From Caldicellulosiruptor hydrothermalis 108 (lineage in GTDB: Bacteria; Bacillota; Thermoanaerobacteria; Caldicellulosiruptorales; Caldicellulosiruptoraceae), in contig NC_014652.1 of the NCBI RefSeq assembly GCF_000166355.1, positions 588,001 to 652,000 of the forward strand: a DNA stretch of 64,000 nt, written 5' to 3'. A model generated the notes under the pieces. It saw only the letters and a program-made list of their open reading frames with translations, had not been told where the DNA came from and ran no database searches. This document shows positions 619 through 7,809 of this stretch, in pieces; positions within the stretch are counted from its first letter, which is position 1, and every line of letters begins with the position of its first letter. The position numbers and the translations under genes are program-made.

Positions 619-2352
619 ATGAAAGAAACTTCGGTTGATTTATGGATAAAGGATTTTATAGAGCTTACTGATACCCAGTTTGAAAGGTTTGAGCAGGCAA
701 TAAAATCAGAAAGAGGATTTTGGCTATACGATATCAAAGAAAAGAAGATTTATCTGTCAGACGGCGTTGTGTATCTTACAATACAAAGTGAGAATATTGA
801 GGACTATGTCAAAAAGCTTATGGCTGAAAATGAATTTATCCACCTTTTAAATCTTGCAAAAGAAAGTATAGAGAATAAACAAAATGGTTTTTCTATCAGA
901 GTAAAACTAAAGGAAGGCAGATGGATTTTTGTTTGTGCCACCATCCTCTATAAAAAGGGGATACCATTTAGGATAGTGGGGACATTTGAAGATGTAACAC
1001 CCCATGTTTCATGTGATTTAAGACTGAACAGGTATATTGAGCTTATTGCATATTATGATGATGTAACTGGGCTTCCAAATAGAAACTTTTTAAACGAAAA
1101 GATTAGAGAGAGAATAGAGGAGAGCAAGAAAGAGAATTCAAAATTTTGGGTAATATTTATTGAGGTTGGTAATTTTAGTTATATCAATGAAATATTTGGA
1201 CACGCAGTAGGAGATGAATTTTTAAAGTCGATAGCAATGGAGATAAAAAAGTTTTTGCCAAGAGAATGGATTTTCAGCAGGTTTGGCGGGGATGAATTTG
1301 TAGTAGTGACAACAGATGTAGAGAAAGCTTCGGTTGTACAAATTGTAGAAAATCTTGTAGAAAGATTTTCAAGAAGTTGGAGTGTAATGGGGAAGTGGTT
1401 ATATACAAACATCAACATAGGGATTGCTGGATACCCGCAGGATGGCACAGAAGCTGATACAATTTTGCAAAATGCAGAAATTGCCCTCACAATGGCCAAA
1501 AAGCGTGGAAAGGATATGGGCAAAAGTCTTTATGAGTTTTACGAAAGGTCTATGACAGAAGAGATTTTGAGAAGAGTTGAAATTGAGTCTGAAATCTTGA
1601 GAGGAATTCAAAATAAACAGTTCTTTTTAGTATATCAGCCAAAAGTATCCCGTGATGGTAGGACGGTAGTCGGTTTTGAGGCACTTCTGAGATGGAACTC
1701 CCAGAGAGGGATTTTGACCCCAGACAAGTTTATCCAGATTGCAGAAGAGAGCGGCCTTGTGTATGATTTAAACAGGCTCATATTGGATATTGTTTGCAGA
1801 GATATAAAATATATAAAAGAAAATGGTTTCAAGAAAGTGCCGGTTGCTATAAATTTGTCAGGCAAAGAGTTTGCCATGTATAATATGATAGGTATTTTAA
1901 GCGAATATCTGGAAAAACACGATGTGACTTCTAAAGATATTGAGATAGAAGTAACTGAAAGGATAATTTTGAATAATTTAGAACTTTCAAAAGAAATTTT
2001 TAATGAACTTTATGAAAAAGGCATTAAGATTTCAATAGATGATTTTGGCACTGGTTATTCGTCCCTTGAGCTGCTTTTGACACTTCCTATTCATGCCCTT
2101 AAGATTGACAAAAAGTTTATAAGCAGAATAGAGTTTTTTGGTAATGAATATGTTATTGTTAAAAATATCATTTATATGGCAAAAGAAATGAATTTGAAAA
2201 CAATTGCTGAAGGTGTTGAAAGAAAAGAACAATATGAGATATTAAAGGAATTGGGATGCGATGAATTTCAAGGCTATTATTTTTCAAAGCCGATGAGAAT
2301 AGAAGAGGTAGCTGAGCTTAGAAAGCAAGATGAGAGTCTTGAAATACAATAA
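619..2352 (+). CDS. GGDEF/EAL protein with PAS-like N-terminus
   Basis: A 577-residue cytoplasmic protein for cyclic-di-GMP turnover. Residues about 25-130 resemble a PAS sensor domain. A GGDEF domain follows, with the signature intact at 223-227, then an EAL domain with its signature at 354-356. The EAL domain keeps the residues expected for phosphodiesterase activity: the Asn of INLSG, the paired Glu of EVTER, DDFGTGYSS from 474, the Lys of LKIDKKF, the Glu of IAEGVER and the Gln of QGYYFSKP. In the GGDEF domain the first metal-binding Asp of the usual D-x-D-x-F motif reads Glu (IEVGNF), and there is no RxxD inhibitory site before GGDEF. Hydrolysis is therefore the safer activity call. It seems to be a single-gene unit. 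Confidence 0.9.
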   Translation: MKETSVDLWIKDFIELTDTQFERFEQAIKSERGFWLYDIKEKKIYLSDGVVYLTIQSENIEDYVKKLMAENEFIHLLNLAKESIENKQNGFSIRVKLKEGRWIFVCATILYKKGIPFRIVGTFEDVTPHVSCDLRLNRYIELIAYYDDVTGLPNRNFLNEKIRERIEESKKENSKFWVIFIEVGNFSYINEIFGHAVGDEFLKSIAMEIKKFLPREWIFSRFGGDEFVVVTTDVEKASVVQIVENLVERFSRSWSVMGKWLYTNINIGIAGYPQDGTEADTILQNAEIALTMAKKRGKDMGKSLYEFYERSMTEEILRRVEIESEILRGIQNKQFFLVYQPKVSRDGRTVVGFEALLRWNSQRGILTPDKFIQIAEESGLVYDLNRLILDIVCRDIKYIKENGFKKVPVAINLSGKEFAMYNMIGILSEYLEKHDVTSKDIEIEVTERIILNNLELSKEIFNELYEKGIKISIDDFGTGYSSLELLLTLPIHALKIDKKFISRIEFFGNEYVIVKNIIYMAKEMNLKTIAEGVERKEQYEILKELGCDEFQGYYFSKPMRIEEVAELRKQDESLEIQ

Positions 2353-2469
2353 AGATAGTACTGTGTTTCTCATATTTTCCCATATACAATAGAAAATTAC
2401 TTACAAAAAATTAAAAAGCAAAATAAACTTCTTTTAGGCACTTCGACTGACTACGATGGAAAGGTAATT

Positions 2470-2498
2470 TTGGTATTGAATCCAGGGTATTTTATAAT
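2470..2498 (+). promoter_or_regulatory. Predicted araB promoter
   Basis: TTGGTA (2470-2475) and TATAAT (2493-2498) with a 17-base spacer. Transcription would begin near 2505, at the start of the long hairpin at 2501-2555, and continue into araB. Confidence 0.5.
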
Positions 2499-2500
2499 CT

Positions 2501-2555
2501 AAAAGAGAAGGATGTGAAATTGTTCACGTACAACTTTTTTCACTCCTTCTCTTTT
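2501..2555 (+). terminator. Long hairpin in the araB leader
   Basis: AAAAGAGAAGGA (2501-2512) pairs perfectly with TCCTTCTCTTTT (2544-2555). A further 6 base pairs (2514-2519 with 2538-2543) follow after one bulged T. GTTCTTTTT comes after it. It could end transcription of the GGDEF/EAL gene, but it lies downstream of the predicted araB promoter, so it may also act as an attenuator or as a stabilising 5' hairpin. Confidence 0.55.
2520..2533. promoter_or_regulatory. Candidate AraR operator
   Basis: TTGTTC-AC-GTACAA is an inverted repeat with 5 of 6 symmetrical positions. It resembles the known AraR site TTGTAC-GTACAA, with two extra central bases. It sits about 15 bases after the predicted start of the araB transcript, where a bound repressor would block transcription. 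araR lies just downstream of araB. The match is imperfect. Confidence 0.4.
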
Positions 2556-2631
2556 GTTCTTTTTGCATATATGTTACTATATTTTTAAAGAAACATGTAT
2601 GCACAAGCAAAAGGGGAAAAGGGGGATTTTT

Positions 2632-4302
2632 ATGGCAAAGTTTAGTATAGGAATTGATTTTGGGACACAGTCAGGAAGGGCAGTGCTTGTAAATGTGGAG
2701 ACAGGTGAAGAGGTTGCAACAAGTGTGAAAGAGTACACTCATGGAGTTATGGACGAAAGTTTACCAGATGGTACAAAACTCCCTCATGACTGGGCACTTC
2801 AACATCCACAGGATTATATAGAAGTCTTGGCAACAACTGTTCCAGATGTCTTGAAAAAAGCAGGTGTTTCCAAAGACGATGTGATTGGAATAGGAATTGA
2901 CTTTACAGCCTGTACAATGCTTCCTATCAAGAAAGATGGAACACCGCTTTGCATGATAGACAAATTCAAATCACATCCTCATGCCTATGTTAAGCTGTGG
3001 AAACACCATGCTGCTCAAAAGTATGCAAATAGGCTAAATCAAATAGCACAGGAGAGAGGAGAAAAGTTCTTACAAAGGTATGGTGGAAAGATTTCATCTG
3101 AGTGGCTTTTCCCAAAGATCATGCAAATATTAGAAGAAGCACCGGAAATTTATGAAGAAGCAGACAAGTTTATAGAGGCTGCTGACTGGGTTGTAATGAA
3201 GATGACAGGTGTTGAAAAGAGAAACTCATGCACAGCTGGATATAAAGCTATCTGGAGCAAGAGGGAAGGATATCCTTCAAAAGAGTTTTTCATGGCGCTT
3301 CATCCAAGGCTTGAAAATGTGGTTGACGAAAAGCTGTCACGCGACATATATCCTATCGGTCAAAAAGCTGGAGAGCTCACAGAAGAGATGGCAAAGCTAA
3401 TGGGACTCAATCCTGGGACAGCTGTTGCAATTGCAAATGTGGATGCCCATGTATCTGTGCCAGCTGTTGGGATTACTGATATTGGCAAGATGCTAATGAT
3501 AATCGGAACATCTACATGCCACATGCTTCTGTGGAACGAAGAGAAGATGGTGCCAGGCATCTGTGGATATGTTGAGGATGGTATTTTGCCTGGTTTTTAT
3601 GGGTATGAGGCAGGTCAGAGCTGTGTTGGAGACCATTTTGAGTGGTTTGTTGAAAACTGCGTGCCACCAACATACTATGATGAAGCAAAGCAAAAAGGAC
3701 TAAATATCTATCAGCTACTCAAAGAAAAAGCAAAGGTGCTAAGGCCCGGCCAAAGCGGTCTTTTGGCGCTTGACTGGTGGAATGGCAACAGGTCAATTCT
3801 GGTTGATGCAGACCTCACTGGTATGATGCTTGGCATGACCTTAACTACAAAGCCTGAGGAGATGTACAGGGCACTGATTGAGGCAACAGCGTATGGCACA
3901 AAGATAATAATTGACAACTTCAATGAACATGGCATTGAGGTAAGAGAACTTTATGCATGTGGAGGAATTGCTGAGAAAGACGAACTTTTGATGCAGATTT
4001 ATGCTGATGTGACAGGACTTGAGATAAAGGTATCAGCATCACCTCAAACACCAGCACTTGGTTCTGCTATGTTTGGTGCAGTTGCTGCAGGAAAAGAAAA
4101 AGGTGGTTATGACAGCATATTTGAGGCTGCAAAGAAGATGGCAAAACTAAAAGACTATTCTTACAAACCAAATCCGCAAAACCATGAGATTTACAAAAAG
4201 CTATACAGAGAATACAGAATTCTTCACGACTATTTTGGCCGTGGAGCAAATGATGTGATGAAGAGACTAAAAGAGATAAAGGAAGAAGTTTCAAAGATAT
4301 AG
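2632..4302 (+). CDS. araB: L-ribulokinase
   Basis: A 556-residue FGGY-family sugar kinase that phosphorylates L-ribulose to L-ribulose 5-phosphate in arabinose catabolism. The N-terminal phosphate motif ([10 protein letters not shown]) begins near residue 7. The ribulokinase-type stretch [13 protein letters not shown] lies near residue 85, and the C-terminal FGGY region carries [10 protein letters not shown] and [13 protein letters not shown]. Length fits AraB (about 560). An open frame extends 26 codons upstream, but the ATG at 2632 follows a GGGGG ribosome binding site and matches where relatives begin, so that start is used. araR and araD follow on the same strand. An araA isomerase is not in the window. 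Confidence 0.93.
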
Positions 4303-4329
4303 ATCTTTAAGTCTTTTAACCATTCAAAA

Positions 4330-4376
4330 GCAGGCTGCCCTTTGAAAACTACCTTTGCTTTTTAGGGGCGGCCTGC
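4330..4376. terminator. Hairpin between araB and araR
   Basis: GCAGGCTGCCC (4330-4340) pairs with GGGCGGCCTGC (4366-4376) with one G-T pair around a 25-base loop. No T-run follows, so it may be a processing or weak pausing signal and not a full terminator. Confidence 0.4.
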
Positions 4377-4455
4377 AAGTTAAATAATGGTATTGATTTA
4401 AAAATTTTTAAGTGGTATGATAAAAATAAACTTGTATGGACAAGATGATGATAAA

Positions 4456-5511
4456 ATGAGCAAAACCAAATATGAGATTATAAAAGATTTCATTATTGAA
4501 GGAATTAACTCTGGCAAGTTCAAAGAGGGCGAGAAAATTTATTCAGAGAATATGCTATCACGAAAGTTCAAAGTTTCGCGGCACACTGTAAGAAGAGCTA
4601 TAATGGAGCTCGAATTTGAAGGACTTTTGGTGTCGCAGAAAGGAAGAGGCACGTTTGTTGCAAAGAAAAGTGCAGACAGCTCTAAATGCATTGCTGTTCT
4701 GACAACATTTATATCAGACTACATCTTTCCCCTGATTATAAGAGGAATTGAAAAGGTGATAGCACATGAAGGGTACGGTCTTTTGCTGTTTTCGACTGAC
4801 AACAGCTATGAATTTGAAAGATATCACTTGGAGAGCATAATAAACAACCCAAACATAGACGCTGTCATAATAGAACCAACAAAAAGTACCTTGCCTTCCA
4901 AAAATCAAGAGCTTTATAGAAAACTCATACAAAAAGACATCCCTGTGATTTTCATCAATACTATTTTAGAAGAAATTGCTCAAAACTACATAATAACCAA
5001 AGACCAGTCAGCTGTTTACAGGCTTACATGCAGCCTCATAAAAAGCGGTTGCAAAAAGCTTCTTGGCATTTTCAAAGGCGACGATTTGCAAGGGATAAAA
5101 AGATACAGTGGTTTTGAAAAAGCGTGCAGGGAGGCACAGGCAGAGTTTGATGCAATCTTTTTCACAAGTGAGGAGTATAATTTTGTTCATAACAGAGCTG
5201 CTGAAGTCATATCAAGAGAGAGATTTGATGCAGCCGTTTGCTACAACGACAAGATTGCCCTTCCTCTTTGTGTAAAGCTAAAAGAAATGGGATTTAGAAT
5301 TCCTCAGGATATATCTGTTACAGGATATGACAACTCACTTCTTTCTACACTGACAGATATAAAGCTCACAACTGTTGAGCATCCAAAAGAAAAGCTTGGA
5401 GAGATGGCAGCAAAGGCAGCAGTTGCCATGATAAAGAAGAATAGAAAAGGTGTCAAGGAAGAGGTTGAATGTGAGATAATCTTCAGAAATTCAACAAAAG
5501 GAGGATTTTGA
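4456..5511 (+). CDS. araR: Arabinose repressor AraR (GntR-LacI type)
   Basis: A 351-residue regulator with a GntR-type winged helix at the N-terminus (KYEIIKDFI, then the recognition helix VSRHTVRRAI and the wing QKGRGTFVAKK) joined to a LacI/GalR-type sugar-binding domain from about residue 75. This fusion is the hallmark of AraR, which represses arabinose genes until L-arabinose binds. The frame is open from 4417, but the Bacillus AraR N-terminus (MLPKY) aligns with the ATG at 4456 (MSKTKY). Neither start has a strong ribosome binding site. It sits between araB and araD, and its likely target is the site at 2520-2533. Confidence 0.85.
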   Translation: MSKTKYEIIKDFIIEGINSGKFKEGEKIYSENMLSRKFKVSRHTVRRAIMELEFEGLLVSQKGRGTFVAKKSADSSKCIAVLTTFISDYIFPLIIRGIEKVIAHEGYGLLLFSTDNSYEFERYHLESIINNPNIDAVIIEPTKSTLPSKNQELYRKLIQKDIPVIFINTILEEIAQNYIITKDQSAVYRLTCSLIKSGCKKLLGIFKGDDLQGIKRYSGFEKACREAQAEFDAIFFTSEEYNFVHNRAAEVISRERFDAAVCYNDKIALPLCVKLKEMGFRIPQDISVTGYDNSLLSTLTDIKLTTVEHPKEKLGEMAAKAAVAMIKKNRKGVKEEVECEIIFRNSTKGGF

Positions 5512-6158: not shown

Positions 6159-6204
6159 AAAATTACTTTTCCCCCAGCACAAGAAAGGATTGTTAATACA
6201 ACAT

Positions 6205-6243
6205 AAGGCTGCCGTTTTCAAGTGGCAGCCTTGCTTGTTTTTT
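6205..6243. terminator. Terminator after araD
   Basis: AAGGCTGCC (6205-6213) pairs perfectly with GGCAGCCTT (6224-6232), followed by GC and a T-rich run. It lies between convergent genes. Confidence 0.8.
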
Positions 6244-7601
6244 TACAGTCCAAATATTCTGCTTACAACCTCTTTTAGCTCTTCATCACTTATTGATGTA
6301 TTTCTTCCATTTTCATATTGACTGTCTACCCACTCTTTGACCTTCTGAACCCTTGGGTCTTTTTTGTCAACCTGAATGTCAATGCCGCTATCTTTGAAAT
6401 ACCTGTTTATCCAGATTACAATTCCTGCAATGCCTGAGTATGCATCAATAATCACCTTAGGAGGCTTCCCCAGAATCTTTCCTGTATCAAATATATTGTA
6501 AATCTCCTCATCTTTCATAAGTCCATCTGCATGGATTCCTGCCCGTGTTGCGTTAAAGTTCTCACCGACAAAAGGCGTCATTGGAGGAATCTCATACCCG
6601 ATTTCTTTTTTGAAATACTCAGCAATCTCAGATATCACAGCAACGTTCATGCCATCTGCCGACCCTCTTATCTGAATATATTCCATCACCATTGCCTCTA
6701 ATGGAGTGTTGCCGGTTCGCTCACCTATTCCCAAAAGAGATGTGTTTACCATTGAGGCACCATAAAGCCATGCCATTGTTGAGTTTATGACTGCCTTGTA
6801 AAAATCGTTATGGCCATGCCATTCAAGCCACTCAGATGGCACTTCACCATAGTTCACAATGCCATAGATTATCTGTGGAACGCTTCTTGGCAGAGCCACA
6901 CCCGGTATTGGTGATCCAAGCCCCAGCGTGTCACAGGCTCTGATTTTCACAGGCATATTTGCCTCTTTTGAAAGCTTCATAAGTTCATTAATAAACGGCA
7001 GGACAAACCCGTAAAAGTCTGCGCGTGTGATGTCTTCAAAATGGCAGCGTGGTATAATTCCTGCCTCAAGGGCTGATGAGACAATCTCTAAGTATTGCTT
7101 CATTGCCTGACTTCTTGTCATCTTTAATTTTTTGAAGATATGATAGTCAGAACATGAAACCAAAATTCCTGTTTCCTTGATACCAAGGCTCTTTACAATC
7201 TCAAAATCCTCTTTTTTTGCGCGAATCCAAGCGGTGACTTTTGGGAAATCATAACCTTTTTCCAAACACTTTAAAACTGCTTCTTTGTCCTGTTTTGAGT
7301 ACACAAAAAACTCTGTATGAAGAATAACGCCACTCCCATTGTCAAGTTCATGCAAGTAGTCATAAATTCTACAAATTTGATCAACAGTGTACGGTGAGCG
7401 TGATTGCTGGCCGTCTCTGAAAGTTGTGTCGGTAATATAAAGTTTTTCTGGCACGTTCATGGGCACAATCCTGTGGTTGAATACAAGCCTTGGTACTTCA
7501 TTGTAAGGATAGATGTTTCTGAAAAGATTTGGCTCTTCAACATCCCTGAACTGATACTCAATCTCAAGAATGTGAGTCTTTTGATTAAATTTTACATTCA
7601 T
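6243..7601 (-). CDS. Re-type citrate synthase candidate (DRE-TIM family)
   Basis: A 452-residue member of the isopropylmalate/homocitrate synthase (DRE-TIM) family. It condenses an acyl-CoA with an oxoacid in a metal-bound TIM barrel. Visible motifs are DTTFRDGQQ at residues 58-66, HFEDITRAD in the middle, the metal site HGHND, and GIGERTGNTPLEAMV. It lacks the C-terminal LeuA allosteric domain. An N-terminal extension before the barrel, the FRDGQQSR variant and the length agree with what I recall of Re-citrate synthases such as the Clostridium kluyveri enzyme, which makes citrate for glutamate synthesis in anaerobes. The ATG at 7601 lies about 10 bases after GGGAGG; an upstream TTG at 7610 touches the ribosome binding site and is rejected. 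A c-di-AMP riboswitch occupies its leader. A homocitrate synthase or other DRE-TIM activity cannot be excluded. Confidence 0.7.
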   Translation of the reverse strand: MNVKFNQKTHILEIEYQFRDVEEPNLFRNIYPYNEVPRLVFNHRIVPMNVPEKLYITDTTFRDGQQSRSPYTVDQICRIYDYLHELDNGSGVILHTEFFVYSKQDKEAVLKCLEKGYDFPKVTAWIRAKKEDFEIVKSLGIKETGILVSCSDYHIFKKLKMTRSQAMKQYLEIVSSALEAGIIPRCHFEDITRADFYGFVLPFINELMKLSKEANMPVKIRACDTLGLGSPIPGVALPRSVPQIIYGIVNYGEVPSEWLEWHGHNDFYKAVINSTMAWLYGASMVNTSLLGIGERTGNTPLEAMVMEYIQIRGSADGMNVAVISEIAEYFKKEIGYEIPPMTPFVGENFNATRAGIHADGLMKDEEIYNIFDTGKILGKPPKVIIDAYSGIAGIVIWINRYFKDSGIDIQVDKKDPRVQKVKEWVDSQYENGRNTSISDEELKEVVSRIFGL

Positions 7602-7621
7602 AAAAAACAAACCTCCCTTTC

Positions 7622-7750
7622 AAAGCTTCGGGGGTTAGCTGACGGGTTCGGGCAGAAAGGGACTTTTGCCCTACAAGGCAAAAATGCCTTGATTCACCCC
7701 AAAAAGTGGGTCCCCCCTATCCTGTGCTTTTTACACAGGAATTCAGCTTT
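7622..7750 (-). promoter_or_regulatory. c-di-AMP riboswitch (ydaO/yuaA class)
   Basis: The minus-strand leader matches the ydaO aptamer block by block. P1 is AAAGC/GCTTT (7746-7750 with 7622-7626). Then come GCTGAATTC, a CCTGTG...CACAGG stem (7721-7739), GGGGGGACCCAC followed by TTTTTGGGGTGAATC (ending at 7691), a CAAGGCA/TGCCTTG stem, GTAGGGC (7668-7674), CCCGAACCCG, and CAGCTAACCCCCGAAGC (7625-7641). These follow the same order as the Thermoanaerobacter ydaO aptamer as I recall it. The ribosome binding site of the downstream gene starts a few bases after P1. This suggests control of translation, with ligand expected to switch expression off as in known members. Confidence 0.9.
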
Positions 7751-7780
7751 TTTTGATTTTATTTTTTTATTATGATTTTT

Positions 7781-7809
7781 ATCATACCAGAAAAGCGGCA
7801 GTTTGGCAA
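7781..7809 (-). promoter_or_regulatory. Promoter of the riboswitch and citrate synthase gene
   Basis: On the minus strand TTGCCA (7804-7809) and TATGAT (7781-7786) are separated by 17 bases. The transcript would start near 7774, about 25 bases before the aptamer. Confidence 0.65.

Follow-up and report, generated by a model that had tools for sequence, protein, structure and literature searches.

The minus-strand leader of a citrate-synthase-like gene in the thermophile Caldicellulosiruptor hydrothermalis 108 raises the question of whether a c-di-AMP riboswitch of the ydaO class controls a citrate synthase and, if so, in which direction and in what physiological setting. A sequence-only reading of this DNA had proposed that such an RNA, transcribed from its own promoter, governs how carbon enters citrate and lowers glutamate synthesis when c-di-AMP is high. 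We followed up this proposal in the whole 64,000-nucleotide stretch from which the locus comes (NC_014652.1, positions 588,001 to 652,000; referred to below as the window, whose numbering we use), in the rest of the genome, and in related genomes.

The ydaO leader and its conservation

A cmscan search of the whole window matched the leader to RF00379 over the full model (positions 1 to 134 of 134), far above the curated threshold of 38 bits (Table 1); at genome scope the same match has an E value of 2.3e-23. All conserved blocks of the aptamer are present, so that the leader shares the full aptamer of the ydaO/kimA c-di-AMP riboswitch, and the match ends 7 nt upstream of the ATG at 7601. The Infernal search with RF00379 that the sequence-only reading had suggested thus returned a significant hit, bearing out the ydaO aptamer that it had recognized and its place directly before the gene, and a candidate sigma-70-like site from a consensus scan agrees with the promoter that it had proposed. 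The span that it had given for the RNA, 7622 to 7750, runs exactly from the 5' strand to the 3' strand of P1 and stops short of positions 7621 to 7612, where the 3' strand of the pseudoknot and the Shine-Dalgarno sequence carry the mechanism proposed below. By family, the leader RNA is a genuine c-di-AMP riboswitch, predicted to bind this ligand; its aptamer is typical of an established class, and its target is unusual. Because the downstream neighbor is transcribed convergently and a terminator-like hairpin separates the two genes, the transcript probably carries this gene alone.

Table 1. Features of the leader and the gene that follows it (window positions).
Feature	Positions	Strand	Basis
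Promoter-like site: TTGCCA (7809-7804), 17-nt spacer, TATGAT (7786-7781), TG before the -10 (extended)	7781-7809	-	Consensus scan, 10/12 matches; candidate
c-di-AMP (ydaO) riboswitch aptamer, full RF00379 match	7608-7758	-	95.8 bits, E 2.2e-21
P1 5' strand AAAGCU, partner AGCUUU (7627-7622)	7745-7750	-	Rfam alignment, helix extended by eye
Aptamer helix ([[[ ]]] in Rfam), 5' strand of six G, partner CCCCC (7634-7630)	7712-7717	-	Rfam alignment
Aptamer loop UCCCUUUC, pseudoknot 5' strand	7655-7662	-	Covariation with tail, 84 leaders
CCCCC, inner aptamer helix 3' strand; also complementary to the Shine-Dalgarno sequence (basis of the ON alternative)	7630-7634	-	Rfam alignment; folding
P1 3' strand AGCUUU	7622-7627	-	Rfam alignment
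Tail GAAAGGGA, pseudoknot 3' strand	7614-7621	-	Exact 8-nt complement of 7662-7655; covariation
Shine-Dalgarno sequence GGGAGG, 10 nt before ATG; four bases within the pseudoknot strand	7612-7617	-	Sequence
Re-citrate-synthase-like gene P0001, 452 aa, stop codon included	6243-7601	-	HMGL-like match; family beside aconitase
Terminator-like hairpin between the Re-citrate-synthase-like gene and a convergent aldolase gene; T run on plus-strand copy	6204-6233		13-pair stem, consensus scan

The genome (2.77 Mb, one contig) contains three RF00379 matches, as does each of the 12 genomes of the genus (12/12). By coordinate comparison, an RF00379 match ends 5 to 7 nt before the Re-type citrate synthase (Re-CS) gene in 11 of the 12, which argues that the pairing did not arise by chance. 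In the twelfth genome (G006), a TnpB-type element separates the Shine-Dalgarno sequence of the riboswitch from the Re-CS ATG, and this genome is, judging from the arrangement, a natural loss of riboswitch control of Re-CS. The element occupies positions 3081 to 4559 (minus strand) of that locus (L064), between the GGGAGGTT of the riboswitch and the Re-CS start. No ydaO core was detected beside Re-CS among 80 Re-CS relatives in genome_contigs, and no ydaO RNA was detected beside Re-CS in 36 other genomes of the phylum with a Re-CS homologue; within these samples, ydaO immediately before Re-CS was confined to this genus. A search for other ydaO hits followed by this gene family, also suggested earlier, therefore succeeded within the genus (11/12 genomes) but yielded no direct pair outside it.

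Identity of the downstream gene

The product of the gene, P0001, is an HMGL-like protein (PF00682, E = 3e-33), in line with the Re-citrate-synthase-like family assigned by the sequence-only reading. It belongs to the same enzyme superfamily as the Re-citrate synthases of C. kluyveri and C. thermocellum, with which it was compared by description (PMC6115520, PMC12016533). The only NCBIfam models that match are of the homocitrate/isopropylmalate (leuA/nifV) type, all far under their cutoffs; Re-citrate synthases are often misannotated as homocitrate or isopropylmalate synthases (PMC12016533). Members of the P0001 family have aconitase as a neighbor at 48 of 138 loci (duplicates are among them, and two are paralogues in the same bacterial family), so that many relatives of P0001 share the aconitase adjacency of the C. 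thermocellum Re-CS. A Si-type citrate synthase (PF00285) is absent from the genome, whereas 13 of 14 control genomes have this domain.

A second Re-CS paralogue, 71% identical to P0001, is encoded elsewhere in the genome and has no riboswitch. It is this paralogue, and not the P0001 copy itself, that has an aconitase neighbor in two relatives. In a protein tree, P0001 groups with its orthologue from a sister genus, apart from the paralogue, and the clade is distinguished from 103 more distant relatives by a single residue column (His95 for Gln). Considering the aconitase-adjacent family, the absence of PF00285, and the riboswitch-less paralogue found beside aconitase in two relatives, P0001 is probably a second, signal-controlled Re-CS; compared with the C. 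kluyveri and C. thermocellum enzymes, it would be a second, riboswitch-controlled copy of a putative Re-CS. The proposal that the RNA governs how carbon enters citrate goes too far, because the second paralogue lies outside this control.

The same genome encodes a third, shorter homologue (G000:C1:2200887-2201849, minus strand; L071) that is 43% identical over residues 13 to 332. The nearest relatives of P0001 outside the family (72 to 73%) come from two MAGs labelled Actinomycetota (L136 and L137), where the Re-CS genes have an FmdE-like gene on one side and a convergent dehydrogenase-like gene on the other, and neither eam nor ydaO accompanies them.

Linkage to glutamate 2,3-aminomutase

The genome encodes one diadenylate cyclase (DAC) domain (E = 1e-47), and the organism is accordingly predicted to make c-di-AMP. 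Its second ydaO RNA precedes a radical-SAM aminomutase, glutamate 2,3-aminomutase (eam, beta-glutamate), which scores 677.2 bits on TIGR04368, above the equivalog cutoff of 650 bits; the third precedes a cell-wall SH3/NlpC-P60-like hydrolase, named from its sequence. The eam leader has a terminator, and within the terminator loop the sequence CCGAGGUUA is perfectly complementary to the strand UAACCUCGG of the aptamer. This arrangement matches the published description of OFF-type c-di-AMP switches (PMC9337991). When the eam terminator leaders were folded thermodynamically, the two states were not resolved from each other.

In G012, from the sister genus, one ydaO RNA stands in front of eam, and the P0001 orthologue comes 37 nt after eam. 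The same ydaO-eam-ReCS order occurs in a distant lineage (G048), where Re-CS is decayed; the eam genes of G012 and G048 score slightly under the TIGR04368 cutoff (644 and 625 bits). At the G048 locus (L065, positions 2006 to 3040, minus strand), Re-CS has several stops, a frame break, and an internal loss, and the eam gene before it is intact. Since ydaO, eam, and Re-CS form a single unit in both a sister genus and a distant lineage, Re-CS seems to be part of a glutamate/beta-glutamate regulon under c-di-AMP. The sequence-only reading had included neither the eam gene of the same genome nor these operons, through which Re-CS is linked to the production of osmolytes. Its view that ydaO switches mostly sit before potassium transporters and cell wall genes is too narrow, as eam is a common target in this phylum, with ydaO upstream in 22 of the 30 best eam loci of the phylum sample.

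In sequence, the aptamers before Re-CS come closest to those before eam in the family (73 to 74%, versus 56% to NlpC) and group with them in the aptamer tree (92/91); the AU test leaves the NlpC grouping possible (P = 0.41). This nearness, taken together with the ydaO-eam-ReCS units in G012 and G048, fits an ancestral operon that may have split, each part keeping a copy of ydaO. Published work counts eam among the targets of Na+ riboswitches and places ablA under a c-di-AMP switch (PMC9337991). The tandem Na+/c-di-AMP riboswitches of Dehalobacter act on lysine 2,3-aminomutase, placing a c-di-AMP switch on an aminomutase for a beta-amino-acid osmolyte, as with eam; unlike the leader studied here, they are of the terminator type and without a citrate synthase (PMC9337991).

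The loop-to-tail pseudoknot and the sign of control

Our scan found no intrinsic terminator between the aptamer and the Re-CS ATG, where the end of the aptamer match leaves no room for one. The leader is therefore not a transcription-terminating ydaO switch of the B. subtilis type, and in this respect, as in its target, it differs from the ydaO/kimA riboswitch. Its aptamer loop and the tail immediately 3' of P1 are exact complements (Table 1). Across 84 distinct ydaO leaders, the loop-tail self-match was 15.73, compared with 13.09 for shuffled pairings (standard deviation, 0.25; 0 of 5,000), and in the fixed register 74% of cells were Watson-Crick, with several pair types, compared with 52% for shuffles, which are inflated by related sequences, and at most 49% for slides, which preserve relatedness. 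The leader hardly varies inside the genus, and the covariation therefore rests on the other leaders. These data point to a loop-to-tail pseudoknot in the RF00379 class, one that is probably already known, since PMC9337991 mentions an "aptamer pseudoknot" that adjoins P1 at its right shoulder. In 44 of 50 leaders without a terminator, at least 3 nt of the Shine-Dalgarno sequence fall within the pseudoknot strand (the 50 probably include three eam leaders whose assigned start is spurious), and the native Re-CS tail matches the loop better than do the Shine-Dalgarno tails of 38 other genes in the window. At the loci L021 and L027, a dehydrogenase-like gene (MKFAVIGAGNGGQAMAAHL...) is preceded by two ydaO RNAs in tandem, of which the first has a terminator and the second lies directly on the Shine-Dalgarno sequence.

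Because the Shine-Dalgarno sequence lies within a covarying pseudoknot and the C. glutamicum nlpC switch was OFF when tested (PMC9960051), we favor, with somewhat better than even confidence, a translational OFF switch on Re-CS. The nlpC RNA, the sole tested terminator-less ydaO switch found in the literature examined, is a translational OFF switch for which its authors suggest a pseudoknot at the ribosome binding site (PMC9960051). Compared by description, it shares with the Re-CS leader the lack of a terminator and the proposed translational control, whereas its target is a cell wall peptidase rather than a citrate synthase gene. At high c-di-AMP, the folded aptamer would keep the loop paired with the tail, which holds most of the Shine-Dalgarno sequence, and ribosomes would be kept off the Re-CS mRNA. 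If c-di-AMP dropped, at low K+ or under osmotic stress, the pseudoknot would open and more citrate synthase would be made, feeding 2-oxoglutarate and glutamate; the second ydaO RNA would control eam and with it the conversion of glutamate to beta-glutamate. The Re-CS and eam switches together would constitute a c-di-AMP-set glutamate/beta-glutamate solute regulon, encoded as one operon in relatives. The direction proposed by the sequence-only reading, with c-di-AMP lowering the enzyme and glutamate synthesis, is probably right on the same two grounds, but it concerns one of two Re-CS copies.

Nested folding gives a different picture, with two states in balance: the free state pairs the Shine-Dalgarno sequence with 7634-7630 (P = 0.96 at 37°C), whereas forcing the aptamer releases it, and the free state may thus also be partly closed. 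Taken further, this suggests an ON switch, in which ligand-free AACCCCC (7636-7630) pairs with GGGAGGUU (7617-7610) and hides the Shine-Dalgarno sequence until c-di-AMP recaptures the strand and turns the gene on; the U-run after this hairpin perhaps also ends transcription in the free state. At 37°C, the Shine-Dalgarno sequence was unpaired at 0.18 in the free state versus 0.68 with the aptamer forced, and its openness was lower free than forced in 11/11 orthologous leaders folded, marginally so in one. Grafted tails lend modest support, as 2 to 4 of 39 Shine-Dalgarno tails, the native one among them, reach the native contrast. However, the strand 7636-7630 does not covary with the Shine-Dalgarno sequence across families, whereas the competing pseudoknot covaries strongly, and nested folding ignores pseudoknots, including this one; on these two grounds we demoted the ON reading to a rival. 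In addition, the hairpin is mostly open at 75°C (P = 0.26), the U-run is not retained in G009, the tested terminator-less relative is OFF (PMC9960051), and the sister operons have terminators of the OFF layout. We consider an ON switch unlikely.

Two further alternatives concern the gene and the link rather than the sign. P0001 could be a related synthase (for homocitrate, citramalate, or another acceptor) that serves an unspecified solute together with eam, which would leave the riboswitch part unchanged. The leuA/nifV-type NCBIfam matches, the divergence of P0001 from its paralogue, and the aconitase neighbor of the paralogue rather than of P0001 favor this; the single distinguishing residue column, the 48 aconitase-adjacent loci, the lack of a Si-type enzyme, and the frequent misannotation of Re-CS genes (PMC12016533) weigh against it, and we regard it as distinctly improbable. 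It is harder still to credit that the aptamer is a leftover of the split operon that no longer regulates Re-CS meaningfully. Although the insertion in G006 implies that the link is not essential there, and the tail GGGAGG is also common to the eam leader, where there is no start signal, the other 11 species retain the full aptamer and pseudoknot even though loop and spacer bases vary. As a whole, the explanation that best accounts for the locus, and one that we judge reasonably probable, is a c-di-AMP riboswitch controlling translation of a Re-type citrate synthase isozyme, with eam in the same solute regulon.

In other Gram-positive bacteria, c-di-AMP has been placed at pyruvate carboxylase and in K+/glutamate homeostasis (PMC8822347, PMC7857571). 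Citrate synthase as a c-di-AMP riboswitch target was not found in the literature examined; as far as that literature shows, the Re-CS target and its operon context are new, while the RNA is a standard member of its class. If the explanation is true, a citrate synthase gene is directly under c-di-AMP control, and the overlap of pseudoknot and Shine-Dalgarno sequence would provide a simple mechanism for terminator-less c-di-AMP riboswitches, a question left open by PMC9960051. The eam link leads to the physiological hypothesis that glutamate and beta-glutamate serve as solutes. The broader view, that c-di-AMP sets the glutamate/beta-glutamate pathway through eam and a second Re-CS and that the terminator-less ydaO class carries its Shine-Dalgarno sequence in the 3' strand of the pseudoknot, seems to us evenly balanced. 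For this genus, the likely outcome is that a potassium or osmotic signal dampens the initial step on the way to glutamate, next to a second switch on the gene for the related solute beta-glutamate.
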